64,000 nucleotides of DNA from a virus: positions 93,135-157,134 of IMG/VR virus record IMGVR_UViG_3300030099_006646; one strand, written 5' to 3'. Every line of letters starts with the position of its first letter. Position 1 is the stretch's first letter. Position numbers and translations under genes: made by a program. Shown piece by piece: positions 20,297 through 55,751 of the stretch. The notes under the pieces are model-generated. The model saw nothing but the letters and a program-made list of their open reading frames with translations, made no database searches and was not told the origin of the DNA.

Positions 20297-22153
20297 ATGG
20301 ACATAACTAAACAGATTTTATCAGATATCACAGTGCATATGAAGTATGCGCGTTATTTGCCCAAGAAAGAAAGAAGAGAAACTTGGAAAGAACTTGTTAC
20401 CAGAAACAAGAAGATGCACTTAAAAAAATATCCTGATTTGAAGGAAGAAATAAATCGGGCGTATAAATACGTCTATGATAAAAAAGTTCTCCCTTCTATG
20501 CGCTCTATGCAATTTGGCGGTAAACCCATTGAGGTTGCTCCTAACCGTATTTATAATTGTTGTTTTTTGCCTATTGACGATTGGCGTTCTTTTTCAGAGA
20601 CTATGTTTCTACTTCTTGGGGGAACAGGAGTGGGATACTCCGTTCAAAAGCACCATGTTGAGAAACTACCAGAAATTCAAAAGCCTAATTCGAAAAGAAC
20701 CCGACGATTCTTAATCGCAGATTCTATTGAAGGATGGGCTGATTCTGTTAAAGCTCTTATGCGAACTTACTTTCAAGGCGGATCAAAACTACGCTTTGAT
20801 TTCTCTGATATTCGCCCTAAAGGCTCTCGCCTTCTTACATCAGGCGGAAAGGCTCCAGGAGCACAGCCTCTTAAAGAGTGTCTTTTGAAAGTAGAAGGTA
20901 TTTTAAGTGAGAAAGAAGATGGCGAGCAGCTTTCAACGATTGAAGTCCATGATATTGTTTGTCATATTGCTGACGCTGTACTTGCCGGCGGCATTCGTCG
21001 CGCTGCTCTTATCTCACTTTTTAGTGCCGATGATGATGAAATGCTCGCCGCCAAAACAGGTAATTGGTGGGAAAAGAACCCACAAAGAGGACGAGCAAAC
21101 AACTCTGTTGTCTTAATGAGGCACAGGATAACAAAAGATTATTTTATTGACCTATGGAACCGCGTAAAAGCGTCTGGCGCAGGAGAACCAGGGTTTTATT
21201 TCACCAATGATAAAGACTGGGGAACTAACCCTTGCTGTGAAATCGCTCTCCGCCCTTATCAGTTCTGCAACCTTTGCGAAGTAAACGTCAGCGACATTGA
21301 AACCCAAGAAGAATATGAAGCCAGAGTGACCGCAGCGGCATTTATTGGCACCCTACAGGCAGGCTACACCGACTTCCATTACTTGCGTGACGTTTGGCGT
21401 AGAAATACCGAGAAGGACGCATTAATTGGCGTTTCCATGACTGGCATCGCCTCGGGTAAAGTTTTAGAACTTGATATGAAAAAAGCAGCCCAGGCAGTAA
21501 AAAAAGAAAATAAAAGAGTTGCTGCTCTTATAGGCATCAAGCCAGCAAATCGCACCACCTGCGTAAAACCTGCTGGAACCACGTCGCTTACATTGGGCAC
21601 ATCCAGCGGTATTCACGCTTGGCACAACGATTTCTACATTAGACGCCTTAGAGTTGGAAAGAATGAGCCAATTTATACTTATCTTACGATAAACCATGAA
21701 AACTTAATTGAAGATGAGTATTTCAGACCTCACGATACAGCGGTCATATCAATCCCTCAGAAAGCCCCAGAAAGCGCTATTACACGCACTGAGAGCGCTC
21801 TTCAGCTCTTACGAAGGGTAAAGGGCGTAAGCGAGGAGTGGGTTCGAAATGGACACGTTAGAGGGCAGAATACGCACAATGTCTCTGCCACCATCTCTAT
21901 CAAAGAAGCAGAGTGGATTGATGTAGGTGAGTGGATGTGGGAGAATAGAACCTCCTATAATGGTTTATCAGTCCTTCCTCATGATGGAGGAACTTATGTT
22001 CAAGCACCATTTGAAGATTGCTCTAAGGAGCGATATGAAGCACTTTTGGAAGATTTAAAAAATATTGACTTAACAAAAGTGGTCGAAATGGAGGATAATA
22101 CTGATCTCAAAGGCGAACAAGCATGTTCCGCTGGCGGCTGTGAAGTTATTTAA
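20297..22153 (+). CDS. nrdJ: Ribonucleotide reductase, class II (adenosylcobalamin-dependent)
   Basis: This 618-residue monomeric-type reductase turns ribonucleotides into deoxyribonucleotides. Visible are PNRIYNCCF near residue 85, LLLGGTGVGYSVQ near residue 112, the radical-site region NPCCEIALRPYQFCN near residue 313, KPAGTTSLTLGTSSGIHAW and the C-terminal redox pair CSAGGC. No small-subunit (NrdB) or activase (NrdG) gene accompanies it, which with the motifs points to class II, common in aquatic phages. A glutaredoxin at 44490 could supply electrons. The odd Cys-Cys (NPCC for NPCG) is noted. Confidence 0.85.
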   Translation: MDITKQILSDITVHMKYARYLPKKERRETWKELVTRNKKMHLKKYPDLKEEINRAYKYVYDKKVLPSMRSMQFGGKPIEVAPNRIYNCCFLPIDDWRSFSETMFLLLGGTGVGYSVQKHHVEKLPEIQKPNSKRTRRFLIADSIEGWADSVKALMRTYFQGGSKLRFDFSDIRPKGSRLLTSGGKAPGAQPLKECLLKVEGILSEKEDGEQLSTIEVHDIVCHIADAVLAGGIRRAALISLFSADDDEMLAAKTGNWWEKNPQRGRANNSVVLMRHRITKDYFIDLWNRVKASGAGEPGFYFTNDKDWGTNPCCEIALRPYQFCNLCEVNVSDIETQEEYEARVTAAAFIGTLQAGYTDFHYLRDVWRRNTEKDALIGVSMTGIASGKVLELDMKKAAQAVKKENKRVAALIGIKPANRTTCVKPAGTTSLTLGTSSGIHAWHNDFYIRRLRVGKNEPIYTYLTINHENLIEDEYFRPHDTAVISIPQKAPESAITRTESALQLLRRVKGVSEEWVRNGHVRGQNTHNVSATISIKEAEWIDVGEWMWENRTSYNGLSVLPHDGGTYVQAPFEDCSKERYEALLEDLKNIDLTKVVEMEDNTDLKGEQACSAGGCEVI

Positions 22154-22213: not shown

Positions 22214-22468
22214 ATGTCCGATCAAGATAAAACAAAAGAAGAATATGTAGTTGATTTCATCAAGGCATTCGACGAGAATGAACGAGCGATGGAACCTTTC
22301 AAAGAGCACCGACGAGATCTTCGCAAGAACTATGTCGAGAACGGCTGGCTGTCGAAAGATGAAATGAAACAAGCTGTTCGTGCTTACCGAATGCTTCAAA
22401 AAGATGAAGACTTCAATACACTACAGGATATCTATGACCGTCTTAGGAAGACCTTGGGGGTATTCTAA
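22214..22468 (+). CDS. Small helical protein, 84 aa (weak GapR/DUF2312 resemblance)
   Basis: It is highly charged and almost entirely helical. The order of features is long helix, KNYVENGW turn, ARAYRML-type helix, then DIYDRLRKTLG, reminiscent of GapR (DUF2312), an alphaproteobacterial DNA-associated protein. The similarity is weak and by eye only. It has SD AGGAGAG and its stop overlaps the start of the GroES-like gene by 1 nt, so the two are coupled. Confidence 0.6.
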   Translation: MSDQDKTKEEYVVDFIKAFDENERAMEPFKEHRRDLRKNYVENGWLSKDEMKQAVRAYRMLQKDEDFNTLQDIYDRLRKTLGVF

Positions 22469-22731
22469 TGAAGCCTTTCAACAGACACTTGTTGATTCAG
22501 CCTATAGCGAAGGAGACAGAACAAGAAAGCTTTGTGCTAGTTCCAGATAACTATAAGCCAGTTTCACCATATATCAGTGCAAAAGTTCTAGATTTTGCCG
22601 ATGATTGCAAATTAAATGTAAAAAAAGACCAAACAATCATCATTGACAATTCTATGGTTCAACAAGTTGAAATCAATAGAGAAACAAAGTTTCTTATTCT
22701 TGAAAACTATGTTATGGGAGCGCTCGATTAA
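22468..22731 (+). CDS. GroES-like co-chaperonin
   Basis: This 87-residue protein has the GroES outline: an N-terminal KPFNRHLLIQPI strand (compare KPLxDRVLVK), a mobile-loop-length region with FVLVPDNYKP, and a closing LILENYVMGALD strand (compare YLILREEDILAVL). T4 gp31 is likewise a diverged GroES that adapts GroEL to fold capsid protein. This phage also encodes a GroEL (41740), so the pair could form a phage-own folding chamber. The GGG roof hairpin and IVL motif of bacterial GroES are not obvious. Confidence 0.72.
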   Translation: MKPFNRHLLIQPIAKETEQESFVLVPDNYKPVSPYISAKVLDFADDCKLNVKKDQTIIIDNSMVQQVEINRETKFLILENYVMGALD

Positions 22732-22773
22732 GCTCAAAACGGGATTTTCCTCAAGGAATATTCTAGTTATGAG

Positions 22774-22779
22774 TATAAT
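22774..22779 (+). promoter_or_regulatory. TATAAT box exactly 6 nt before ATG 22786
   Basis: TATAAT at 22774-22779 puts a standard start of transcription at the ATG itself, and no Shine-Dalgarno is present. No good -35 is seen 16 nt upstream. See the leaderless-gene finding. Confidence 0.4.
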
Positions 22780-22785
22780 ATTCTT

Positions 22786-23376
22786 ATGAATGCTTTACTT
22801 ACAGCGCTGATTTCTTCAGCAATAATGGGGGGTTATCCTCAAGATAACAATATCCCACAAGATATTTATGATGATTATGCTAGCATCGTAGACCAGGCAA
22901 CTTATAAGTGCCCTTACGCTAAACCTGAAAAGGTTAACGTAAAATTATTATGGGATCTAGTCAAGATTGAAGCAAAACATAATCCACCTCCCGAGCTACA
23001 AGGTATGCTTTTGGCTGCTGCTTGTCACGAATCAGGGTACAACCCTAAAGCTCTTGGCGACTACACCAAGAAGACTCGCTATCCTCGTGCCCAAGGAATA
23101 CTACAGCAGTGGGTTTGGGTTAAGAAATACGGCGTTGACCGCTTCAATCCCCACCAAGCTGCTGAGTTTTGGATGAAGCATGTTGTAAGACAATTGAAGA
23201 AAGTGAAGAAACAATGTCGCTTTCGTTCACAAAAGAAACTATGGATAGCGGCTTGGGTTACCTCTATTAGGTATCCTAAACCTTCGGGACGATGCTACGA
23301 AAGACCCTTACATTTAAGGATTTTAAAGAAATGGCAAAGGAATATAAAGAGGAAGACGAAACTCACCGGCTGCTAA
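22786..23376 (+). CDS. Lytic transglycosylase / lysozyme-like protein
   Basis: This 196-residue protein has a lysozyme-fold signature: ACHESGYNPKALGD with catalytic Glu near residue 85, then RAQGILQQW (compare G-x-x-Q of SLT domains) and a basic C-terminus. A hydrophobic N-terminus (LLTALISSAIMGG) may export it or anchor it. It would cleave peptidoglycan, either as a virion entry enzyme or as a lysis accessory. The last 46 nt overlap the next gene. No ribosome site is seen before the ATG. Confidence 0.75.
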   Translation: MNALLTALISSAIMGGYPQDNNIPQDIYDDYASIVDQATYKCPYAKPEKVNVKLLWDLVKIEAKHNPPPELQGMLLAAACHESGYNPKALGDYTKKTRYPRAQGILQQWVWVKKYGVDRFNPHQAAEFWMKHVVRQLKKVKKQCRFRSQKKLWIAAWVTSIRYPKPSGRCYERPLHLRILKKWQRNIKRKTKLTGC

Positions 23377-26707: not shown

Positions 26708-27556
26708 ATGAACCTTGTAGGAAACACGCCTCTTGTAAAGTTGGGCGATAAACTTTACGCTAAGTTCGAAGCATACAACCCATCCGGCTCTATCAAAGAC
26801 AGGATGGCTGCTTACATTCTCCAAAAAGCCGAAGAGAACGGCGATTTAAGAGAAGGCTATACTATTGTAGAAGCTTCATCAGGAAACACAGGTATAGCCT
26901 TTGCTATGCTCGCAGCAGCCAAAGGATACGGCTGTATTATTGTTATGCCTCGTAACATGAGTGAAGAGCGCAAGCAAATGATGCGCTCCTTCGGTGCTCG
27001 TATTATTGAAGTAGGCGACAATGCTTTTAAAGATGCGATTGAGCAGAGAGATCAACTAGTCCACAACTTTGGAACTTATTGGTCTCCACGGCAGTTTAGC
27101 AATATTCATAACATTGAATGTCACGAGAAAACCACAGCAGCAGAAATCGCACAAGCCGTTTTGGATATGCCCGCCCGTCTTTCTGCCCTTGTATCAGGAG
27201 CAGGCACAGGCGGAACTATTATGGGCTGTCAGCGAAGATTGAGCAAGCTATGGAGTGATGCCCGCTTTCTGCTTACAACGCCCTTAGAGGACGCAGCAAG
27301 CCACGGCATACAAGGCATTAACGATGGCGCAGACTTTTTGGTTGATAAAACTCTTATTGATGAAGAACTTGTTGTTTCCACACAAGAAGCAAAAGAAAGA
27401 GCTTGTCGTTTAGCAAAAGAAAATGGCTTGCTTGTAGGCATTAGTTCTGGTGCCAATGTGCTCGCAGCAGAGCGATGGATAGAAAAAAATAACCCCACCG
27501 GAGTGGTGGTAACCTTTCTTTGTGACAGAGGAGAAAGGTATTTGAGTTGTATGTAA
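26708..27556 (+). CDS. Cysteine synthase (O-acetylserine sulfhydrylase)
   Basis: This 282-residue PLP enzyme makes cysteine from O-acetylserine and sulfide. Family marks are present: GNTPLVKL near the N-terminus, PLP lysine 30 in NPSGSIKDR, SSGNTG for substrate binding, the phosphate loop GAGTGGT and a C-terminal GISSGAN. It is slightly shorter than bacterial CysK/CysM (about 300-320). It lies between two leader-tagged genes but has no leader itself. In a phage it may sustain cysteine supply or alter sulfur flow; that is inference. Confidence 0.88.
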   Translation: MNLVGNTPLVKLGDKLYAKFEAYNPSGSIKDRMAAYILQKAEENGDLREGYTIVEASSGNTGIAFAMLAAAKGYGCIIVMPRNMSEERKQMMRSFGARIIEVGDNAFKDAIEQRDQLVHNFGTYWSPRQFSNIHNIECHEKTTAAEIAQAVLDMPARLSALVSGAGTGGTIMGCQRRLSKLWSDARFLLTTPLEDAASHGIQGINDGADFLVDKTLIDEELVVSTQEAKERACRLAKENGLLVGISSGANVLAAERWIEKNNPTGVVVTFLCDRGERYLSCM

Positions 27557-31876: not shown

Positions 31877-32671
31877 ATGAAATCACCTTTAAGATATCCA
31901 GGCGGTAAATCAAGAGGCGCTAAATACATCACAACCTTTGTTCCAAACGATGCAGAAGAGTTCTGCTCTCCTTTTATCGGAGGAGGCTCAGTAGAGTTGA
32001 TGATTGCAGCCAGAGGCACAAAGGTTTATGGTTATGATATATTCCAGCCTTTGACTTGCTTCTGGAAACATCTTCTTAAGTCCCCTATGGCTCTTGCCAC
32101 GCTCTCTGATACATATCGCACTCCGCTTGATGGAAACAGAGGACTCACAAGGCAAGACTTTCTGCGATTTAAGAAAGATCTTTGTGAAGAGCCTGCGACT
32201 ACTTTGACACACGCAGCAAAATTCTATGCACTCAATCGCAGTTCATTCTCAGGCGCTACACTTTCAGGCGGCTACTCAAAGCAAGCAGCCTATAAGCGCT
32301 TCACAACTAGCTCTATTGAGCGCGTAAGGAAGTTTCAAGAGCCTAACCTAGAGGTGGATTGCCTAGACTTTAAAGAGTCCATATCTAAGCATCCTGATGC
32401 GTTCTTGTATTGTGACCCTCCCTACATGCTAGAGAAGAACAACAATCTTTATGGAAAGAATGGCGATACCCACTCAGGCTTTGACCACGAAGGACTATTT
32501 AATCTATTGAATAAAAGAAAAGGATGGTTATTATCTTATAATAATACTCCTGAAATCAGAGAGATGTATAAGGATTACGAAATCTTTGATGCACACTGGG
32601 CTTATGGCATGAAAAATGTTTCAACAAAAACGATGGGTTCCAGTTCTGAAATACTAATTATAGGGCAATGA
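31877..32671 (+). CDS. Dam-type N6-adenine DNA methyltransferase (D12 class), first copy
   Basis: This 264-residue enzyme has SAM-binding motif I at LRYPGGKSRGAKY near the N-terminus, an FCSPFIGGGSVELM segment and catalytic motif IV DPPY in LYCDPPYML (about residue 177). These define D12-class methylases such as Dam, which methylate adenine, often in GATC. It may protect phage DNA from host nucleases. A second, more distant member lies at 57017. No cognate restriction gene is adjacent, although the next gene has a nuclease-like fold. Confidence 0.9.
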   Translation: MKSPLRYPGGKSRGAKYITTFVPNDAEEFCSPFIGGGSVELMIAARGTKVYGYDIFQPLTCFWKHLLKSPMALATLSDTYRTPLDGNRGLTRQDFLRFKKDLCEEPATTLTHAAKFYALNRSSFSGATLSGGYSKQAAYKRFTTSSIERVRKFQEPNLEVDCLDFKESISKHPDAFLYCDPPYMLEKNNNLYGKNGDTHSGFDHEGLFNLLNKRKGWLLSYNNTPEIREMYKDYEIFDAHWAYGMKNVSTKTMGSSSEILIIGQ

Positions 32672-33795
32672 ACATGAACAAAGATCTTAGAAAGCTTGTA
32701 GTATCTGTAGTGAAAGAGGAAGTAGAAAACTTCAAGGTTCCTCCTGAGATGAAAAAGAGCCTAGATGGTCCTATGCCCAGCCCGCAAGATAGTGAAGAAA
32801 GAAATCTTCAGAAAGCGATTAGGGCTATTGAAGCAGAGGGGTACGATTACGAGATTCGCGGAAAAAACACCATTATTATTAGGGATGATGATAGAATAGA
32901 GACTCTTGAGAAAATGAAATCTATGCTCATTCCGCAAGGTTTCAGGCACAACCCAATTGGAGGTGGCAGTAGCATTGGACGCCTTGAGGTTAAAGATAAA
33001 ACCCTTGGAAACGTTTATATCCTAATTAAGCCAAAATCGCGCAGAGCAGCAGCTACGGCTGGTATGGATTTCGAAGATAAGATGGCGCAACTTATAAATG
33101 ACAAATATGCAACGATGGGAGTAAAAGCATCAACAGCCGGGTTTGGACCCGGATCAGACCTCACTATAAAGACTCCCACAAAAACGATTACCGCAGAACT
33201 TAAGACAGCTTTGTCTGCCGATTTCGGTCAGTTTAGAGCACAATATAATCAAGAATCTGAATCATGGGAGCCTAGAAGAACATCTGGATTTGTGAAGAAT
33301 GAGAGTATATTTACTCCTTTGTTTGAGCAGTATTTGAGAAATTGGCTTAATGTAAACGCAACGTTCCGCAATCCCGCAGACTCTAGACTAAGAAAAGACG
33401 GGCTTAAAATAACAGGTCTTGCCCGTTCAGAGGGCACTGGCGAACTAAAAAGACAACTTCAGAACGATTGGTTTAGTGGCAAGACAGATTACAAAGTCCC
33501 TTTTCCATTCCAAATGATTGCCTCTTATTATGCTGATAAAGGCGATGAGTATATACAAATCAACGGTCGAGGATTGTACGCGCTTACACCCGAAGCTTCA
33601 AAAAAGCTAGGTGTTCCTATGTTTAAGGATCTTGGCTTGATATCTTACCTAAGATTTAGATTTAAACCAAGCCAGGGAGTTAATAGCGCTACTTCTTTTA
33701 CTGTAGCGGTAAAACTTAAAGGAAGGTATAAAGATTCTAATTTAAGCCTAACAAACGCTGAAGATTTGGATATAATAATAAACAAACTTCTATAG
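32668..33795 (+). CDS. Leader-tagged (class A-like) PD-(D/E)XK nuclease-like protein, 375 aa
   Basis: The start overlaps the Dam stop (ATGA-like). The N-terminus NKDLRKLVVSVVKEEVENF is a diverged class A leader. Residues about 45-120 form a small alpha/beta module. Then FE (135-136), GPGSDLTI with Asp 164 and ITAELK with Glu 177 and Lys 179 give the canonical restriction-fold active site E...D...ExK. The rest is helical and unassigned. Coupled to a methylase, it could be its nuclease partner, or a packaged nuclease used on entry. Confidence 0.62.
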   Translation: MNMNKDLRKLVVSVVKEEVENFKVPPEMKKSLDGPMPSPQDSEERNLQKAIRAIEAEGYDYEIRGKNTIIIRDDDRIETLEKMKSMLIPQGFRHNPIGGGSSIGRLEVKDKTLGNVYILIKPKSRRAAATAGMDFEDKMAQLINDKYATMGVKASTAGFGPGSDLTIKTPTKTITAELKTALSADFGQFRAQYNQESESWEPRRTSGFVKNESIFTPLFEQYLRNWLNVNATFRNPADSRLRKDGLKITGLARSEGTGELKRQLQNDWFSGKTDYKVPFPFQMIASYYADKGDEYIQINGRGLYALTPEASKKLGVPMFKDLGLISYLRFRFKPSQGVNSATSFTVAVKLKGRYKDSNLSLTNAEDLDIIINKLL

Positions 33796-33802
33796 GTGGT
33801 AT

Positions 33803-35257
33803 ATGAAAAATTTATGTCGTGCGGATTTAATCCGCGAAGCTTTATTGCGTGGCGAGAACAGCGCCACCCTAACTAACGATGGTGCACTGGTAGTCAACAC
33901 TACCCCCCACACTGGACGTTCACCAGAAGCAAAGTTTATTGTCGAGGACGATATAACAAAAGACTTGGTAGATTGGAAAAACAACCAAAAAATGACCAAG
34001 CAAAATTTTGAGATCTTTAAAAAAGAATATAAAATCCCTAATGATCTCTTTGTTCAAGAAGTATATGCAGGAGCAGACCCATCGCACCGTTTAAAGGTTC
34101 GCGTTCACACAAAGAACGCTTGGCACTCGGTCTTTGCACGAAACATGTTCTTTCTTCCTACAGAAGAGGAACTCCAAGGTTTCGAACCAGACTTTAATCT
34201 TTACTACATTCCCGGAAACACAACAGACCCACGAGTCATTATCTCTATGGAAGATAAGGAAATATATATCTCGGGAACTTCTTATGCTGGAGAGATGAAG
34301 AAAAGCGTCTTTTCGGTGCTTAACTTCTTATTACCCCAAAAGGGTATACTGCCCATGCATTGCTCCGTAAATGTCACCAGAACTTCCATGAGTTCTACAG
34401 TGTTCTTTGGATTATCAGGGACCGGTAAGACAACCCTTTCTGCCGACATAGATAACTGGCTTGTGGGAGACGACGAACACGGCTGGTCTGATGAAGGAGT
34501 TTTTAATTTTGAGGGCGGCTGCTACGCAAAGACAATCAACTTATCCCAAGAAGACGAACCCCTCATTCATCGCGCCTGCCACAAATTTGGGACTGTGCTT
34601 GAAAATGTAGTTACAAAAGACGGCACACCTGACTTTGAGGATTCTTCTATTGCTCAAAACAGCCGCGCTTCTTATCCGCTAGAGTTTGTAAAGAACACTT
34701 GGATGAACGCTAAAAGTGACCATCCTAAGAATGTTATTATGCTTACTTGTGATGCATATGGTATTTTACCTCCCGTCGCTCGCCTTAACACTCTAAATGC
34801 TGTAGAGCAATTCCTTTTAGGATATACAGCCAAGGTAGCAGGAACTGAGAAAGGAGTTAAAGAGCCTGAAGCGACCTTCTCGCACTGTTTTGGAGCACCC
34901 TTTATGCCCTTGAAGCCAAGGGTATACGCAAACCTCCTCAAAGAAAAAGTAAAAAAACACGATGTAACCTGCTGGCTTGTAAATACAGGTTGGACAGGAG
35001 GTCCTTACGGAGAAGGTAAAAGAATGCCTATCGCCTTAACCAGAAGGATTGTTCAATCTATTCAGAATGGATGGATGAAGGAATATAACTTTGAGAAGCA
35101 TATTTATACTGATTTAGATATACCAACGGACTGCAAATGGATTCCCGAGGAGATATTAAAGCCAGAAATGGGATGGAAAGATAAGAAAAAATATGTTGCG
35201 GAAGCTAATAAGTTAATGAGTATGTTTATTAAACGTTTAAAAGACGGGATGTTTTAA
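33803..35257 (+). CDS. pckA: Phosphoenolpyruvate carboxykinase (ATP type)
   Basis: This 484-residue enzyme interconverts oxaloacetate plus ATP and PEP plus CO2. All key parts are visible: TGRSP (Arg 39), SYAGEMKKSVFS (Tyr 161, Lys 166/167), MHCSVNV (His 186), the kinase loop GLSGTGKTTLS (203-213), the metal pair in GDDEHGW (223-224) and FNFEGGCYAK. A C-terminal NTGWTGGPYGEGKRM adenine-side loop is present. It is about 55 residues shorter than E. coli PckA, mainly at the N-terminus, but keeps the catalytic set. GGTGG is a weak SD. It sits between a tagged nuclease-like gene and small zinc-ribbon and dUTPase genes, with phage-like base composition and no mobile element nearby. Confidence 0.93.
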   Translation: MKNLCRADLIREALLRGENSATLTNDGALVVNTTPHTGRSPEAKFIVEDDITKDLVDWKNNQKMTKQNFEIFKKEYKIPNDLFVQEVYAGADPSHRLKVRVHTKNAWHSVFARNMFFLPTEEELQGFEPDFNLYYIPGNTTDPRVIISMEDKEIYISGTSYAGEMKKSVFSVLNFLLPQKGILPMHCSVNVTRTSMSSTVFFGLSGTGKTTLSADIDNWLVGDDEHGWSDEGVFNFEGGCYAKTINLSQEDEPLIHRACHKFGTVLENVVTKDGTPDFEDSSIAQNSRASYPLEFVKNTWMNAKSDHPKNVIMLTCDAYGILPPVARLNTLNAVEQFLLGYTAKVAGTEKGVKEPEATFSHCFGAPFMPLKPRVYANLLKEKVKKHDVTCWLVNTGWTGGPYGEGKRMPIALTRRIVQSIQNGWMKEYNFEKHIYTDLDIPTDCKWIPEEILKPEMGWKDKKKYVAEANKLMSMFIKRLKDGMF

Positions 35258-35271
35258 AGAGGTGAATATGT

Positions 35272-35499
35272 TTGAAAGTTGGAGATTTAGTAAAGTGGTG
35301 TGAAGAGATAGAAGGTAGAGTCTACTACGGCATGATTGTATGCGATGATGTCTATGAGAAATACCAGAACACCTTTTTAATAGAGATACTTCACGAAGCA
35401 GATATTCACGAATTGGTTGAGATATATTGGTTTGAAGACAAGTTCAGCGAACTTATTTGGAAAAGATATATTGATGTAGTTTCTGATTTTAACCCTTGA
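35272..35499 (+). CDS. Small SH3-like protein, 75 aa (TTG start)
   Basis: LKVGDLVKW opens a small beta-barrel-like domain, as in two other small genes here (43927 KKGDLVWVP, 63786 MGDLVECRH). TTG 35272 has GAGGTG about 7 nt upstream. An ATG at 35268 is out of frame and stops after 11 codons. The frame ends inside the promoter region for the next gene. Function unknown. Confidence 0.6.
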   Translation: MKVGDLVKWCEEIEGRVYYGMIVCDDVYEKYQNTFLIEILHEADIHELVEIYWFEDKFSELIWKRYIDVVSDFNP

Positions 35500-35529: not shown

Positions 35530-35820
35530 ATGGGAAATAGTTTTAGTAGACAAGTAAAACGTAACAAACTCAAAAAAGCCAAGAAAGCCATGAAGAAAGA
35601 CATCGCAACAAAGATGTCACTTTTTGGTCACCTTGGTGATGAGTGCATGGTTTGTTCTAAACCTTTTGACAAGAAAGACAAAAAACAAGTAATGTCTTGG
35701 TCTGTTGTCGTAAAGGAAAATGAAAACCAAGTAAACTTATATTGCCCCGATTGCTGGAATAAAGCAAGGGCTATTGTTGATGATTTCAAAAAACGAGTGG
35801 AGGAAAGAAATGATCGTTGA
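35530..35820 (+). CDS. Zinc-ribbon protein, 96 aa
   Basis: A basic N-terminal helix (RQVKRNKLKKAKKAMKK) is followed by a zinc-ribbon-like CMVC near residue 38 and CPDC near residue 76. It is probably a nucleic-acid-binding protein. No Shine-Dalgarno precedes the ATG; with the promoter geometry this points to leaderless translation. It overlaps the dUTPase gene by 11 nt. Confidence 0.7.
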   Translation: MGNSFSRQVKRNKLKKAKKAMKKDIATKMSLFGHLGDECMVCSKPFDKKDKKQVMSWSVVVKENENQVNLYCPDCWNKARAIVDDFKKRVEERNDR

Positions 35821-36268
35821 ATACGCTAGATTAAGAGAAGATGTATTGCCACCAACAAGAGGCAACCCAAGCGATGCTGGTTTGGATGTTTATTTTAATC
35901 CAGAAGATGGGAATTCTATCTCTTTAACTCCTGGTCAAAGCGCCAGGTTCCAAACAGGCTTGCGCTTTGGTATTCCGCATGGATACATGTTGCAGGTAAT
36001 GAACAGATCTTCTGTAGCAGCCAAGAAAAACTTGATTGTGGGAGCACATGTTGTTGATTCTGGTTATGATGGAGAGGTTTTTATTGACATGCACAATATA
36101 GGGACCACAACACAAACTATTGGACCACATGTTAAAATCGCTCAGGTAGTTCTTATCCCGGTTGTTTCTTTCCGAGCCCTCGAAACAAGCTCAGGCAACC
36201 TTTACGACTGGTATCCAATCACAATCTCTGAAAGAGGAGAAGGAGCCCTTGGGAGCACAGGCGAATGA
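35810..36268 (+). CDS. dut: dUTPase
   Basis: This 152-residue trimeric dUTP pyrophosphatase keeps uracil out of DNA and feeds dUMP to dTMP synthesis. The motifs are clear: SDAGLDVYF (motif 1), MNRSSVAAKKNL (motif 2), AHVVDSGYDGEV (motif 3, catalytic Asp/Tyr) and a C-terminal RGEGALGSTGE (motif 5). ATG 35810 with SD AGGAAAG is chosen over an upstream in-frame codon at 35774 inside the zinc-ribbon gene. Confidence 0.93.
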   Translation: MIVEYARLREDVLPPTRGNPSDAGLDVYFNPEDGNSISLTPGQSARFQTGLRFGIPHGYMLQVMNRSSVAAKKNLIVGAHVVDSGYDGEVFIDMHNIGTTTQTIGPHVKIAQVVLIPVVSFRALETSSGNLYDWYPITISERGEGALGSTGE

Positions 36269-36546
36269 GTAATTTAGTACCACCAGGATCTTATACACTA
36301 GCCGGTCATGACATGGGCTTTGGAGATGTAAATGAAGAAAAAGTCAACCACCCGCCACACTATAACGCTGGCAAAATCGAAGCGATCGATGCGATTGAAG
36401 ATTGGGACCTTGGTTTTCACGACGGAAATGCGCTTAAATATATTGCGAGACATAAACATAAACAAAACCCTTGCGAAGATATTGAAAAAGCTATCTGGTA
36501 TCTCCAAAGACACCTCGAAATCTTAAAGGCAAACAATGAAAAGTGA
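36265..36546 (+). CDS. DUF3310 family protein
   Basis: This 93-residue protein carries the DUF3310 signature: VNHPPHYNAGKIEAIDAIEDW, then GNALKYIARHKHK and EDIEKAIWYLQRHLE. The family is common in phages and often listed as nucleotide-kinase-like without proof. Overlaps of 4 nt with dUTPase and 11 nt with the HNH gene suggest coupled translation in a nucleotide-metabolism cluster. Confidence 0.88.
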   Translation: MSNLVPPGSYTLAGHDMGFGDVNEEKVNHPPHYNAGKIEAIDAIEDWDLGFHDGNALKYIARHKHKQNPCEDIEKAIWYLQRHLEILKANNEK

Positions 36547-37102
36547 AAATCAGCAAGAAAAAATCACTAAACAAGATCATGCTAAATACATTGAATCTGT
36601 ACAGTGGAAAGAGAGAAAACAAAAACTTTTTAAAGATTATAACCTTGGAGCCCGTTGTGAAGTGTGCTGTAAAGAACTAACAGAACACCGAGGTCCCTCA
36701 CAAAGACAAGTACATCATAACAATTATTATAGAAAAAACAATGGAGTGATGGAGAGAGACGAAGATTTGATTGTACTTTGCTATGCTTGCCACGATCTAT
36801 TTCACACAAAATCCAGAGCTTCATCTCAACCAGTGTCATCATATGACGTTCAGTGCTCAACATGCGGGACTTTCCTTTACCCAAAACTACCCCAAAACCG
36901 CTCCAGTAGACGATTTGCATCTCGATTGAAATACCGCGACATTCGCTTGTGCTATAAATGCAAAGACATCTTTTCTTCAAAGCCAGAGAAGACTTATAAA
37001 AAGCCACACCCAAAAGAGGAACCACCACCACGCAAGAAGCCATCAGGAAAGATAATAAGAAGGCGCAAGGGCTTGGTAATGGAAAGGAAAGAAAATGATT
37101 AA
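36536..37102 (+). CDS. HNH endonuclease-like protein
   Basis: This 188-residue protein has a zinc-bound HNH core: CEVCCKEL, then QVHHNNYYR, and LIVLCYACHDLFH (His-His, Asn, His with structural Cys pairs; residues about 38-90). A second Cys quartet (CSTC, CYKC) and a very basic Pro-rich C-terminus follow. It is free-standing, and no intron is visible around it. It could be a homing-type nicking enzyme or have a packaging or repair role. Confidence 0.78.
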   Translation: MKSENQQEKITKQDHAKYIESVQWKERKQKLFKDYNLGARCEVCCKELTEHRGPSQRQVHHNNYYRKNNGVMERDEDLIVLCYACHDLFHTKSRASSQPVSSYDVQCSTCGTFLYPKLPQNRSSRRFASRLKYRDIRLCYKCKDIFSSKPEKTYKKPHPKEEPPPRKKPSGKIIRRRKGLVMERKEND

Positions 37103-38162
37103 AGTTATGAGCCCGTCCGATTGGACAAGAGAGAATAAAATGAAAGAAGCAGTATCATTCGACGATGTTCTAATGGTCCCTCAATACAGCGACATAGAAA
37201 GTCGCTCTGAGGTAAACATCAACAGCGACCTCGACGACAACATTACCCTTCATCTACCAGTCATTTCCAGCCCTATGGATACTATCACCGAAGGTGCGAT
37301 GGCTCAAGAGATGAGCAAAGCAGGTGGTTTAGGAATTATTCACCGTTACAACTCAATCCAGGAGCAGTGCAAGATGATAACTGAAGCTGTTGAAGATTTG
37401 GTTGACCATCCTGCCGCAGCCATTGGAGTGACAGGAGATTATCTTGATCGAGCAGAGTCTTTGGTTATGAGTGGTGCAAAGATTCTTTGCGTGGATGTGG
37501 CTCATGGTCATCACGCTATGATGAAGAATGCACTCACAATGTTAAAGAAAACATTTAGTGACACAGTTCACATCATGGCAGGAAATGTAGGCACACTAGA
37601 AGGTCTCAATGCTTTAGCCGAATGGGGCGCTGATTCTGTCCGATGTGGAATTGGAGGAGGCTCTATTTGTTCTACTCGCCTAGTTTCAGGGCATGGAGTG
37701 CCTACCTTGCAGAATATTATTGACTGCGCCAGAACCCACCACGATGTAAAGATTATTGCTGACGGCGGTATTAAGAAAAGCGGAGACATTGTAAAAGCCC
37801 TTGCTGCTGGTGCTGACTTTGTAATGGTTGGCTCTATGTTCGCAGGGACAGACGAAACCCCAGGGCAAGTATTTACAAGCCAGTCAGGCAAGAAGTATAA
37901 AGTATATAGAGGTATGGCTTCGAAAGACGCCCAAACGGACTGGAGGGGTAAATCTTCCACGCCAGAAGGCATCTCAACTACAGTTGCTTACAAAGGGTCA
38001 GCCAAACAGGTATTAAAAGATTTGGCAGGCGGCATCAGAAGTGGGCTTTCTTATACAGGTGCAAGAAATCTTATGCAACTTCGCACCAAGGCTCAATTTA
38101 TTAAACAAACTAACGCAGGTCAACAAGAAAGCTTCACTCACATTCTAATGAGGAATAAATAG
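37095..38162 (+). CDS. IMP dehydrogenase / GMP reductase family enzyme (no CBS domains)
   Basis: This 355-residue TIM-barrel enzyme has FDDVLMVPQYSD, SSPMDTITE, the NAD site ADGGIKKSGDIVKAL and the catalytic Cys in GIGGGSICSTR. IMPDH oxidises IMP to XMP; GMP reductase turns GMP into IMP. It lacks the CBS pair of typical IMPDH, and the flap between YRGM and PEG is short, as in GMP reductase. The tail (AYKGSA, SAG-like NAGQQES) looks more like IMPDH. I leave the reaction open. A PurA at 48522 uses IMP. SD GGAAAGG supports ATG 37095. Confidence 0.85.
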   Translation: MIKVMSPSDWTRENKMKEAVSFDDVLMVPQYSDIESRSEVNINSDLDDNITLHLPVISSPMDTITEGAMAQEMSKAGGLGIIHRYNSIQEQCKMITEAVEDLVDHPAAAIGVTGDYLDRAESLVMSGAKILCVDVAHGHHAMMKNALTMLKKTFSDTVHIMAGNVGTLEGLNALAEWGADSVRCGIGGGSICSTRLVSGHGVPTLQNIIDCARTHHDVKIIADGGIKKSGDIVKALAAGADFVMVGSMFAGTDETPGQVFTSQSGKKYKVYRGMASKDAQTDWRGKSSTPEGISTTVAYKGSAKQVLKDLAGGIRSGLSYTGARNLMQLRTKAQFIKQTNAGQQESFTHILMRNK

Positions 38163-41739: not shown

Positions 41740-43311
41740 ATGTCTAAACACTACCAGTCCGGTACAGGACTAAATGAGAAGATCCTTAACGGGGTTAATA
41801 AACTTGCTGATAATGTAGCAAGCACACTTGGTCCAAAAGGACGAAATGTTATCTTACACAAAAAGGGTGGGTCACCCATTGTTACGAAAGACGGTGTAAC
41901 AGTCGCTAAGTTTATTGAGTTTGATGATCCGTTTGAAAATGTCGGAGCACAAATTCTTAAGCAAGCAGCACAAAACACCAACACTAATGCTGGAGACGGG
42001 ACAACGACTTCGACGGTGCTAGCTAGGGAAATACTAGTCCAGGCACAGAAGTATTTGGCTTCTGGCGTTTCGCCGGTCGAGCTAAAGAGAGGTATGGATA
42101 AAGCAGTTGCCGAGATTGTTAGTAATCTTGATGAGCTTTCCATTCCCGTCTCCAGCCTCCAAGACATTAAGCATATTGCTACTATCTCTGCTAATGGCGA
42201 TGAAAACATTGGCGAGCTAGTGTCAACTGCTATTGACTTGGTAGGCAAAGACGGCTCTATAACCATTGAAGAAAGCAAATCTCTTACAACTACATTAGAC
42301 ACAGTTGAAGGCTTTCGCTTTGATTCAGGTTATTTTTCCAAGTCTTTTGTAACAGATCAGCGTCGGGGTGCTGTGGTTTATGATGACCCTCTTATCTTGG
42401 TTACAGACCATCGCATCGAGCAGCTAGAGGAAATCTTACCTATTCTTGAAGTAGTAGCAAGAGAAAACAAGCCTCTAATCATCGTCGCTGAAGAAGTTGA
42501 AGGTCAAGCCCTCGCTGCTCTCATTATGAATACGGTGCGCGGTTCTATGAAAATCGCTGCTGTTAAGGCTCCTCGCTATGGTGAAGAGCGCCGGGGCATC
42601 CTTCAAGACCTTTGCATCTCCACTGGTGCTACTTTTATTTCTCGTTCAGGGGCTTTGACCTTGACAGAAACAAAACTAGAACATCTTGGACGAGCAAAGA
42701 AGATTGATGTAATAAAAAATAATACTACCATTATTGACGGAGAGTCAGATTGGGATGAAGTAGAAAAGCGTATCGCTTCTCTTAAAGAGGAAATCACCCA
42801 GACAGATGATATCCACGAGTGCGAACGCATTCAAGAGCGCATCACTCGTCTAGCATCAGGCGTAGCCATTATCAAAGTAGGTGGCGCAACTGAAATTGAA
42901 ATGATGGAGAAAAAGCATCGTGTTGAGGATGCACTTGAAGCAGTCCGTTCAGCACAACAGGAAGGAACTGTTACAGGAGGAGGCACAGCCCTTGTCCGAG
43001 CAGCCCACAAGTTAAAAGTAACAACCGATAACAATGAACAAGCCATTGGGGTGGAGATTATCAAACAGTCCCTTACAGGACCAATCAAACAAATGGCTTT
43101 AAACGCAGGTGAATCACCTGATTTAATCATCAACAGGATTGTTAAAACAAAGAATACAAGACAAGGTTGGGACTTTTCAACTGGAAAAATGGTTGACATG
43201 TATGAAGCAGGTATTATCGATCCTAAAAAAGTTACGAGAAATGCGATTGAAAACGCCACTTCAGTTTCTTCCACCCTACTTACAACGAGTTGTGCCATAG
43301 TGGAGGAATAA
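41740..43311 (+). CDS. groEL: Chaperonin GroEL
   Basis: This 523-residue group I chaperonin has the ATP site (VASTLGPKGRNVIL, GDGTTTSTVLA), apical domain (VEGFRFDSGYFS, VEGQALAALIMNTVRG) and a catalytic Asp in VEDALEAVRSAQQEGTVTGGG. It ends TSCAIVEE without the GGM repeat tail and is about 25 residues shorter than E. coli GroEL. Together with the GroES-like protein at 22468 it may fold capsid or other phage proteins. It has its own promoter and the GAGGTATAAATG start cassette. Confidence 0.95.
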   Translation: MSKHYQSGTGLNEKILNGVNKLADNVASTLGPKGRNVILHKKGGSPIVTKDGVTVAKFIEFDDPFENVGAQILKQAAQNTNTNAGDGTTTSTVLAREILVQAQKYLASGVSPVELKRGMDKAVAEIVSNLDELSIPVSSLQDIKHIATISANGDENIGELVSTAIDLVGKDGSITIEESKSLTTTLDTVEGFRFDSGYFSKSFVTDQRRGAVVYDDPLILVTDHRIEQLEEILPILEVVARENKPLIIVAEEVEGQALAALIMNTVRGSMKIAAVKAPRYGEERRGILQDLCISTGATFISRSGALTLTETKLEHLGRAKKIDVIKNNTTIIDGESDWDEVEKRIASLKEEITQTDDIHECERIQERITRLASGVAIIKVGGATEIEMMEKKHRVEDALEAVRSAQQEGTVTGGGTALVRAAHKLKVTTDNNEQAIGVEIIKQSLTGPIKQMALNAGESPDLIINRIVKTKNTRQGWDFSTGKMVDMYEAGIIDPKKVTRNAIENATSVSSTLLTTSCAIVEE

Positions 43312-48521: not shown

Positions 48522-49520
48522 ATGCTTGCTGATGTCGTTATCGGTCTTCAACACGGAGACGAAGCAAAAGGAAAGGTAACCCACCACCTATGTAAGAGTG
48601 GAGAATATACACACGTATTAAGATACAACGGAGGATGCAATGCAGGTCATACAATTTATCACGAGGGAAGAAAATTTATTACCCATCACATTCCTGCTGG
48701 CGTCTTTTATGGTATCAAATCTGTAATCGGCTCAGGGTGTGTAGTAAACAAAGAACAGTTCTTTAAAGAGATTGGCGAGCTAGAAGAAGGCGGCATCAAT
48801 ACAAAAGGACTTATTTTTATTGCCGAAAACACACACGTCATTACCGACGCTCACCTAGAAGAAGACGGTAAAGACACCAAGATCGGAACAACAAAGCGAG
48901 GCAACGGACCTGCTTACCGAGACAAATATAACCGAGATGGGTTACTAGCAAAAGACGACCCAGACTTGGCTGAATACACATTAAACTTATACGAAGAGTT
49001 TCACGAAAATGAAGAAGTTAAAATATTATGTGAAGGAGCCCAAGGGTTTGAGTTGGATATTGACTGGGGAGATTATCCTTTTGTTACTTCTAGTCATTGC
49101 ACAACGGCTGGTGCTCTACTAAACGCAATCCCTCCCAGTTGGATTAGAAATGTCTGGGGCGTAGGTAAAATCTACGAGACCTATGTGGGTGCCAAGAAAT
49201 TTGAGCCAGAGCAGGAAGTATTTAGCCAAATGCGCGATCTTGGAGAAGAATACGGGGCAACTACTGGACGACCAAGGCAATGCAACTGGCTGGACGTTAC
49301 TCGCCTGATACGGGCAATCAAAGTAAATGATGTTACACACGTAGTCCTTAATAAAATGGACATCTTACGACAACTTAATGCCTGGAAAGTCCTTATTGGA
49401 GGAGAAACAGTAAATCTTGGGAATGAAGACCAAGCGAGACTAGTTATTACTAGAGCGCTCGAACTTGGTGTTCCGCACGAGGTTAAAGTGTTCTTCTCAG
49501 ATCAAAAAGATAAAATATAA
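48522..49520 (+). CDS. Adenylosuccinate synthetase, short form (PurA/PurZ family)
   Basis: This 332-residue protein joins aspartate to a purine nucleotide. Visible are IGLQHGDEAKGKV with Asp 13 retained, NGGCNAGHT (His 43), IGTTKRGNGPAYRD, the aspartate loop GATTGRPRQCNWLD and VVLNKMDIL. Bacterial PurA has about 430 residues; this length is typical of archaeal PurA and phage PurZ. PurZ enzymes that make 2-aminoadenine replace the catalytic Asp, whereas here it is kept. The default call is therefore PurA acting on IMP, with an intermediate PurZ-like activity not excluded. Confidence 0.88.
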   Translation: MLADVVIGLQHGDEAKGKVTHHLCKSGEYTHVLRYNGGCNAGHTIYHEGRKFITHHIPAGVFYGIKSVIGSGCVVNKEQFFKEIGELEEGGINTKGLIFIAENTHVITDAHLEEDGKDTKIGTTKRGNGPAYRDKYNRDGLLAKDDPDLAEYTLNLYEEFHENEEVKILCEGAQGFELDIDWGDYPFVTSSHCTTAGALLNAIPPSWIRNVWGVGKIYETYVGAKKFEPEQEVFSQMRDLGEEYGATTGRPRQCNWLDVTRLIRAIKVNDVTHVVLNKMDILRQLNAWKVLIGGETVNLGNEDQARLVITRALELGVPHEVKVFFSDQKDKI

Positions 49521-54006: not shown

Positions 54007-54426
54007 ATGTCTATTTTTGAGAAGTATGATGTAGGGTTACATAATGTAGGTTCTTATCAGGTATCAGGTCGCCCTTTTGTTACAAGTTCGGCGATCCCAG
54101 CATCCGGCGCTCAACCGAACTATTGGAAGGTTGAGTTTCCTATGGTTACAAAAGAAATAACCATAGCAAATAATAGTAACCAAACAAATAAAGATATTAG
54201 GATTGCTTTCTCTGAAAATGGATTAAATGATACAGTTAGAAACTATTTTTTAAAGCATCCGGCAAAAGATGGTGTTGGTCCTACGACATTTAATGTTAAA
54301 GCAACAGAGATATACATTATGAGTGACGATTCCCACGAGCCAGAAGTATCTGTTTATGCCGCTTTAACAAGCATTCCTACCGCCCGTATCCCTGATAATT
54401 GGTCCGGCGAAGATGGAGTAGGATAA
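54007..54426 (+). CDS. Probable virion structural protein, 139 aa
   Basis: MSIFEKYDVGLHNVGSYQVS and WKVEFPMVTKEITIANNS suggest an all-beta protein of the kind found in phage head decoration or fibre-associated proteins. It lacks Cys and hydrophobic helices. It is preceded at close range by the candidate late element. Structural role is inferred from sequence style and promoter class. Confidence 0.55.
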   Translation: MSIFEKYDVGLHNVGSYQVSGRPFVTSSAIPASGAQPNYWKVEFPMVTKEITIANNSNQTNKDIRIAFSENGLNDTVRNYFLKHPAKDGVGPTTFNVKATEIYIMSDDSHEPEVSVYAALTSIPTARIPDNWSGEDGVG

Positions 54427-54443
54427 AAGATACTACTTATATT

Positions 54444-55751
54444 ATGGACTTCCCCTGGAGACATTTCAGAGACGATGAGTGGTGGCGTCAAATCCCTGCT
54501 TGGAAGGATGTAGATTACAAAACTTTCATTGATCACAAGTGGCAAGAAAAGAATGCCATTACAAATCACAAGAAACTTTTAAAAACTATACAAGACCTTG
54601 TAAGTCAGGACTTTCTAGAAGACGCCAAAAACGGCTTTCTAAAGGCTCCAATGGCGATAAGGGTGTCTCCCTATCTATTGTCGCTAATGTCCTGGGAAAC
54701 GCCCGATACTTGCCCGATACGGCGACAATTCTTGCCCCTCGCCTCACAACTTTTACCAGACCATCCAATGTTGAGGTTTGATAGTCTAAATGAACAAGAA
54801 GATTCACCAGTTAAGGGACTTACTCACCGCTACCAAGATAAGGTTTTATTCTTGGCTCTTGATACTTGTCCTGTTTATTGTCGTTTCTGCACTCGTGCTT
54901 ACGCAGTGGGTTCAAGCACAGCCACAGCAGAAAAAGTGTCCATTAAAGCATCAAAAGAAAGATGGACAGACATATTCAAATACTTGCGAGAACATAAAGA
55001 AGTAGAGGATGTGGTAATATCTGGAGGTGATGCTTATCGCCTCAAAGCATCGCAGATAAAAGAAATAGGCGATGAACTTTTAAAGATAGACCACATAAGA
55101 CGCTTCCGTTTCGCAACCAAAGGGCTTTCAGTTATGCCCATGAAACTTTTAACTGATAGCGACTGGATTGATTCTGTGGCTTCAATTGCCAACAAAGCCA
55201 GAAGCCAATATAAAGAGGTCTGCATTCACACGCACTTTAATCACGCGAATGAACTAACCAACATTACAAAGGACGCTATGGATCTTTTAATGTGTAAAGA
55301 CGTCAAGGTTAGAAACCAAACAGTATTTCAAAAAGGCGTCAACGACACGCCCGAAGCCATGATAGATCTGGTAAGAAGGATGAGTTATCTTAACGTCCAG
55401 CCCTACTATGTCTATGTCCATGACCTCACAGCAGGAACAGAAGACATGAGAACATCAGTCCAAACAGCCCTAGACGTTGAGAAGCACGTCAGAGGCGTCA
55501 CTGCTGGCTTTAACACTCCAACCTTTGTTGTAGACGCTCCAGGTGGAGGAGGCAAGCGTTGTGCTCATTCCTTCGAGCACTACAATCGTGAGACAGGCAT
55601 CTCTGTCTATACAGCCCCGAGCGTCAAGTCAGGACAAAAGTTTCTTTATTTCGACCCTCTTCACTCCCTTTCGGAAGACAAGCAAATCGCTTGGACAAAG
55701 AAAGTATTTCAGGAAGAAATGGTAAGAAACGCACTTAGAGCGGCAAAATAA
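54444..55751 (+). CDS. Lysine 2,3-aminomutase-type radical SAM enzyme (KamA family)
   Basis: This 435-residue protein matches KamA along its length: a DDEWWRQIPAW start, PIRRQFLP, SPVKGLTHRY, and the radical SAM cluster CPVYCRFC (Cys 142, 146, 149). VVISGGDAYRL, THFNHANE, NQTVFQKGVND and VVDAPGGGGK (PLP and substrate side) follow, with a YNRETGISVYTAPSV end. KamA turns L-lysine into beta-lysine with SAM, PLP and an iron-sulfur cluster. The length suits KamA rather than the shorter EF-P modifier EpmB (about 340). ATG 54444 lacks a clear SD. Confidence 0.88.
   Translation: MDFPWRHFRDDEWWRQIPAWKDVDYKTFIDHKWQEKNAITNHKKLLKTIQDLVSQDFLEDAKNGFLKAPMAIRVSPYLLSLMSWETPDTCPIRRQFLPLASQLLPDHPMLRFDSLNEQEDSPVKGLTHRYQDKVLFLALDTCPVYCRFCTRAYAVGSSTATAEKVSIKASKERWTDIFKYLREHKEVEDVVISGGDAYRLKASQIKEIGDELLKIDHIRRFRFATKGLSVMPMKLLTDSDWIDSVASIANKARSQYKEVCIHTHFNHANELTNITKDAMDLLMCKDVKVRNQTVFQKGVNDTPEAMIDLVRRMSYLNVQPYYVYVHDLTAGTEDMRTSVQTALDVEKHVRGVTAGFNTPTFVVDAPGGGGKRCAHSFEHYNRETGISVYTAPSVKSGQKFLYFDPLHSLSEDKQIAWTKKVFQEEMVRNALRAAK

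Follow-up and report, generated by a model that had tools for sequence, protein, structure and literature searches.

Among phage-encoded genes of carbon metabolism, those best understood are the auxiliary metabolic genes of cyanophages (talC, cp12, zwf and gnd), by which T4-like phages divert the carbon of their hosts into pentose phosphates and nucleotides. These genes work in the Calvin and pentose-phosphate pathways of phototrophs, whereas a phage pckA, encoding the ATP-dependent phosphoenolpyruvate (PEP) carboxykinase (PEPCK), would place a virus gene at the junction of the TCA cycle and gluconeogenesis, presumably in a heterotrophic host. Virus-borne PEPCK is known from giant viruses of the Mimiviridae, where the enzyme has been filed under reaction R00341 / EC 4.1.1.32 (PMC9270025); the klosneuvirus copies (Catovirus and KNV1), the only PEPCK structures found in BFVD, are annotated as ATP-type, and the hosts of these viruses are eukaryotes. 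Phage lambda acts on the same metabolic node through its CI protein, which represses the host pckA (PMC6359870); it thus turns the host gene down, whereas the phage described here supplies an enzyme of its own. In addition, viral pckA has already been listed as a putative auxiliary metabolic gene, with a KEGG-derived label, in viromes of the Kermadec and Diamantina trench sediments (PMC12448302), with the same gene name on viral contigs and the same proposed metabolic step as here; the accessible part of that report is a listing of labels, in which no phylogeny, active-site or lineage analysis was found. A search of the open-access literature (subscription journals and preprints being outside its scope) turned up no characterisation of a PEPCK encoded by a phage, and PEPCK is not mentioned in Hurwitz 2013.

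The stretch of DNA analysed here, hereafter the window, comprises 64,000 nucleotides and corresponds to bases 93135–157134 of a 158,608-base IMG/VR record. Its pckA gene occupied exactly positions 33803–35257 of the plus strand, as an uninterrupted ORF of 484 codons plus a stop. A Shine-Dalgarno sequence, AGGTGG, was found just 5' of the ATG, with a gap of only 7 nt after the stop codon of the upstream ORF (33790–33802, +), an arrangement which suggests that pckA would be translated within an operon. The encoded protein matched the Pfam family PF01293 (PEPCK_ATP) along its whole length (E = 3.8e-181, 603 bits against a cut-off of 26.5) and scored above the curated cut-off of the NCBIfam subfamily NF006820 (646.8 against 636 bits), with a score below that of the pckA equivalog TIGR00224 (539.7 against 590 bits) and no match in PHROG. 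Alignment with E. coli Pck, in which the roles of the following residues in binding oxaloacetate/PEP, Mn2+/Mg2+ and ATP are established, revealed identity at R65, Y207, K212, K213, H232, D268, D269, E297, R333, R449 and T455 (E. coli numbering), and the P-loop GLSGTGKTT (248–256, same numbering) was also kept. With practically no exception, the same catalytic residues were conserved across about 30 phage PckAs.

The AlphaFold2 model of the window protein (mean pLDDT 92.5, pTM 0.90) retrieved only ATP-type PEPCKs as top Foldseek matches, with TM values of 0.94 to the Thermus thermophilus enzyme (1xkv), first among the solved relatives, and about 0.91 to E. coli Pck, and with the GTP-type enzymes ranking far below. 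These results confirm, as far as sequence and predicted structure can, what the first-pass annotation had proposed, an ATP-type PEP carboxykinase with an intact active site: every residue checked against the E. coli enzyme was present. The window protein shares with bacterial PckA (EC 4.1.1.49; T. thermophilus 1j3b/1xkv, E. coli 1ayl) its fold, P-loop, metal and substrate residues and ATP-type character, but it differs in its length (484 residues against about 530–540, with shorter ends), its identity to sampled cellular proteins (54% at most), its position in a separate phage-only clade and its phage genomic context. The Catovirus model is more distant (34% identity, TM 0.85).

Analysis of the whole record revealed a terminase (PF03237) at 71.4–72.0 kb, the T4-type major capsid protein Gp23 (PF07068) at 85.3–86.8 kb, the Gp20 portal (PF07230), a prohead protease (PF03420) and gp25 (PF04965). 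By this gene content the record belongs to a large T4-like (Gp23) phage, in agreement with the earlier assignment of pckA to a phage. Its capsid protein is related to those of Flavobacterium phage immuto and Rhodothermus phage RM378, a kinship that only hints at a host among the Bacteroidota or Rhodothermota. Genes for glycosyltransferases, a UDP-GlcNAc 2-epimerase, GDP-mannose dehydratase-like, WbqC-like and C-methyltransferase proteins and a PfkB-type kinase were located at 6–26 kb of the contig (L157, L158), making up a phage-encoded glycan pathway.

The pckA gene and its flanking phage genes recurred in the viral contigs L002 (99% identity), L003, L006 (84%), L004 and L005 (77%), and overall at least seven other viral contigs carried pckA at 60–99% identity, in two distinct genomic positions. 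In L007, L008 and L017, which are sister phages (61–65% identity), the gene adjoined the ribonucleotide-reductase block, between homologues of window positions 22468–22731 and 22786–23376, a site (22731–22786, +) that holds no pckA in the window phage. A more distant relative, G728, had its DnaE and dUTPase genes spaced too closely for a pckA to fit. The two positions and this empty site indicate that pckA is an optional gene that has changed its place in phage genomes. In GC content (41.6%, the window as a whole having 40.2%) and in third-position GC it resembled the phage genes around it. That the gene is host cargo, picked up recently and of no selected use, or an artefact of assembly joining phage and bacterial DNA, the latter being one of the findings that the first-pass annotation had named as undoing its reading, is already contradicted by the independent contigs sharing the same phage flanks, the two positions, a dN/dS below 0.1, the GC values and the lack of close cellular homologues among the genomes searched; we consider it extremely improbable, and the independent contigs exclude a chimera, even though some pckA-bearing viral contigs do resemble bacterial DNA, among them UPMK_1 and the contigs L009, L011 and L031, whose PckAs cluster with bacterial or cellular sequences and which may be host DNA.

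A profile scan of IMG/VR identified 72 pckA loci, many of them in phages. Both Gp23 and terminase were present in records G001, G002, G009–G012, G016, G017, G019 and G025, which are therefore phages, as well as in W01 (LR756504). This last one, an uncultured phage of 636 kb, was also the sole credible match in INPHARED, where no credible copy was detected in a cultured phage: the apparent cultured carriers were rejected, since the pckA-bearing sequences of UPMK_1, the AFYI/AGRM Salmonella records and the OR8* fragments resemble host DNA and not phage genes. In Staphylococcus phage UPMK_1 (MG543995.1), pckA is found beside menaquinone genes encoding O-succinylbenzoate synthase and 2-succinylbenzoate-CoA ligase, in what looks like a bacterial chromosome. 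Consequently, the initial impression that few or no characterised phage examples exist holds for cultured phages but not for viruses generally, given the 72 loci, the phage-only clades, the giant viruses and the trench virome listing. Within the lineage, pckA was present in 2 of the 23 long records bearing a cysK-like gene and in none of 17 capsid-related records above 30 kb, many of which, being fragments, may stop short of the locus; pckA is an accessory, minority trait of this lineage and is not essential to it.

Pairwise dN/dS values among close phage pckA copies ranged from 0.04 to 0.10, so the gene is under purifying selection and has been maintained in phages. In a tree of 94 sequences, the window protein fell within a clade of 13 proteins, all from phages (SH-aLRT 100), divided into a group containing the window and L007 and another from other large phages (L019, L020, L023, L024, L027, L033). 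The corresponding 11 rows of a more careful 50-row tree also grouped together (91 bootstrap, 100 SH-aLRT). A second phage-only clade, of the L032–L075 type and with long branches, was placed elsewhere in the tree; the free tree separates the two, although a single clade for all phage PckAs was not rejected (AU p = 0.11). Phylogeny thus delivered one of the two things expected from it, other phage copies, but not a donor lineage, as the phage clade nested in no sampled cellular group, in a sampling that did not specifically include Bacteroidota. Across the cellular genomes searched, 399 of Pseudomonadota and 293 of Thermoplasmatota, the best homologue was 54% identical.

The strong divergence of these proteins, the branch leading to the second phage clade being very long, and the score below the TIGR00224 cut-off are features that could be expected if the PEPCK fold had been recruited for another task, such as sensing of ATP or oxaloacetate or dominant interference with the host Pck, in which catalysis would be of little importance. 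We consider this quite improbable, as hardly any phage copy has lost a catalytic, metal or nucleotide residue and the protein is under strong selection.

Capsid and PckA trees of ten records agreed in their main splits: the window and L006 grouped with L007, L019/L020/L027/L033 came next, and L026 with LR756504 stood apart. Such agreement would be expected if the gene had resided in phages for a long time, with losses or with transfer from phage to phage, and exchange alone could also produce it. Judging from the trees, the window PckA is neither a lone nor a recent acquisition, but part of a phage-only clade, with 11 to 13 sampled members, drawn from several deep T4-like lineages. A more far-reaching history, which we put forward tentatively and think doubtful, would have pckA acquired a single time by an ancestor of several deep T4-like lineages and passed on since then by inheritance and exchange among phages, giving rise to a virus-specific PEPCK family that sets gluconeogenic flux in infected heterotrophic bacteria.

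From the gene itself, its fold and catalytic residues, the phage context, the purifying selection and the phage-only clade, we infer a role in infection. The reading that we favour, and that is probably correct, is that of a functional, phage-owned ATP-PEPCK, an accessory metabolic gene that only a minority of the large T4-like phages possess, in viromes of marine and other origin, with a long evolution inside phages, that would drive oxaloacetate towards PEP in the infected cell; an auxiliary metabolic gene is a plausible, and the best, explanation of phage pckA. The enzyme would convert oxaloacetate and ATP into PEP and CO2 during infection, bypassing or replacing the host's own, tightly regulated pckA, so that cells growing on TCA-cycle substrates such as amino acids and organic acids could sustain their synthesis of triose phosphates, pentose phosphates and serine. 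Serine would in turn yield glycine and one-carbon units which, together with the pentose (ribose), would feed phage nucleotides. The same phage encodes an IMP dehydrogenase, an adenylosuccinate synthetase, a class II ribonucleotide reductase (20297–22153), a dUTPase and sugar-nucleotide enzymes, all of which could make use of this PEP-derived supply. No dedicated PEP-consuming phage enzyme was found, and no other gluconeogenic or pentose-phosphate enzymes appeared among the Pfam matches listed for this contig. If this role is true, phages of heterotrophs would also reroute central carbon, with effects on the CO2 release and biomass yield of infected marine bacteria.

The PEPCK reaction is reversible, and the phage enzyme could also work in the carboxylating direction, from PEP, HCO3- and ADP to oxaloacetate and ATP, providing aspartate for pyrimidines and for the phage adenylosuccinate synthetase, an aspartate-consuming enzyme that some other pckA phages encode as well. 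We regard this direction as unlikely: Pck is gluconeogenic in most bacteria, net carboxylation requires high CO2 and PEP, and the adenylosuccinate synthetase, tried as a partner of pckA, showed a patchy distribution (PurA in 6 of 16 pckA records and 1 of 5 relatives without pckA) with no clear link. A cysteine-synthase-like (cysK-like) PLP enzyme (26708–27556, +; PF00291, E = 3.5e-59) looked at first sight a strong partner, being present in all 11 pckA records of the window clade and in none of five relatives lacking pckA. However, relatives of this gene occur in 316 viral stretches, many of them without pckA, so it is a common gene of the lineage and, with pckA in so few of its long carriers, a functional linkage between the two is unsupported.

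The sialic-acid synthase NeuB, considered as a PEP consumer, was present in only 1 of 17 records, being absent from this contig and from 15 of the 16 other records searched. This absence also bears on the proposal that phage pckA would serve mainly to supply sugar to pathways for surface glycans or nucleotide sugars, and less to make nucleotides. The cluster encoding glycosyltransferases, UDP-GlcNAc 2-epimerase, GDP-mannose dehydratase-like protein and PfkB-type kinase on the same contig speaks for it, but this cluster lies about 100 kb from pckA and its co-occurrence with pckA across phages is putative, and we give the proposal very little credence. With NeuB, adenylosuccinate synthetase and the cysK-like gene all having failed, no genetic partner was found from which the direction of the reaction could be settled.

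In the window, pckA had been described as lying between a nuclease-like gene and a dUTPase, of which the dUTPase was confirmed (35807–36268, +; PF00692, E = 1.4e-14; the ORF list permits a TTG start upstream, at 35774) and the nuclease is putative. The upstream ORF (32668–33795, +; 375 aa) contains a possible PD-(D/E)XK-like motif (SDLTI...AELK), with no Pfam match and only a weak one to PHROG 26930, of function not known. Directly downstream, a small ORF of 75 aa (35272–35499, +), with neither Pfam nor PHROG match, was kept after pckA in the close relatives L003–L006. Further downstream is the IMP dehydrogenase/GMP reductase family enzyme of purine synthesis (37095–38162, +; PF00478, E = 3.8e-110). 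A scan for promoters and terminators gave no excess over shuffled sequences worth interpreting.

The adenylosuccinate synthetase-like protein (48522–49520; only 332 aa) had as its best PHROG match the family of PurZ, the 2-aminooxy-adenylosuccinate synthetase. Near its N-terminus, the motif GLQHGDEAKGK carries an Asp at a position where PurZ presumably has a Ser, and homologues were found in some other pckA phages. The GroEL protein of the window (41740–43311) was 99.6% identical to that of L005 (7514–9085), in comparison with 77% for pckA and mostly 65–90% for neighbouring genes, and DNA identity between both contigs climbed from about 76% to 95–100% across the GroEL gene, suggesting that the chaperonin gene recombined or was exchanged recently. 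In addition, a lysine-2,3-aminomutase-like radical-SAM protein with a LAM_C match (54399–55751) was 76% identical to a copy in the pckA phage L033. Finally, a DUF3310 protein is encoded about 1 kb downstream of pckA in the window (36265–36546), whereas in many members of the second phage clade (e.g., L060, L063, L074) pckA is preceded, at a distance of about 1 kb, by a homologue of this gene.
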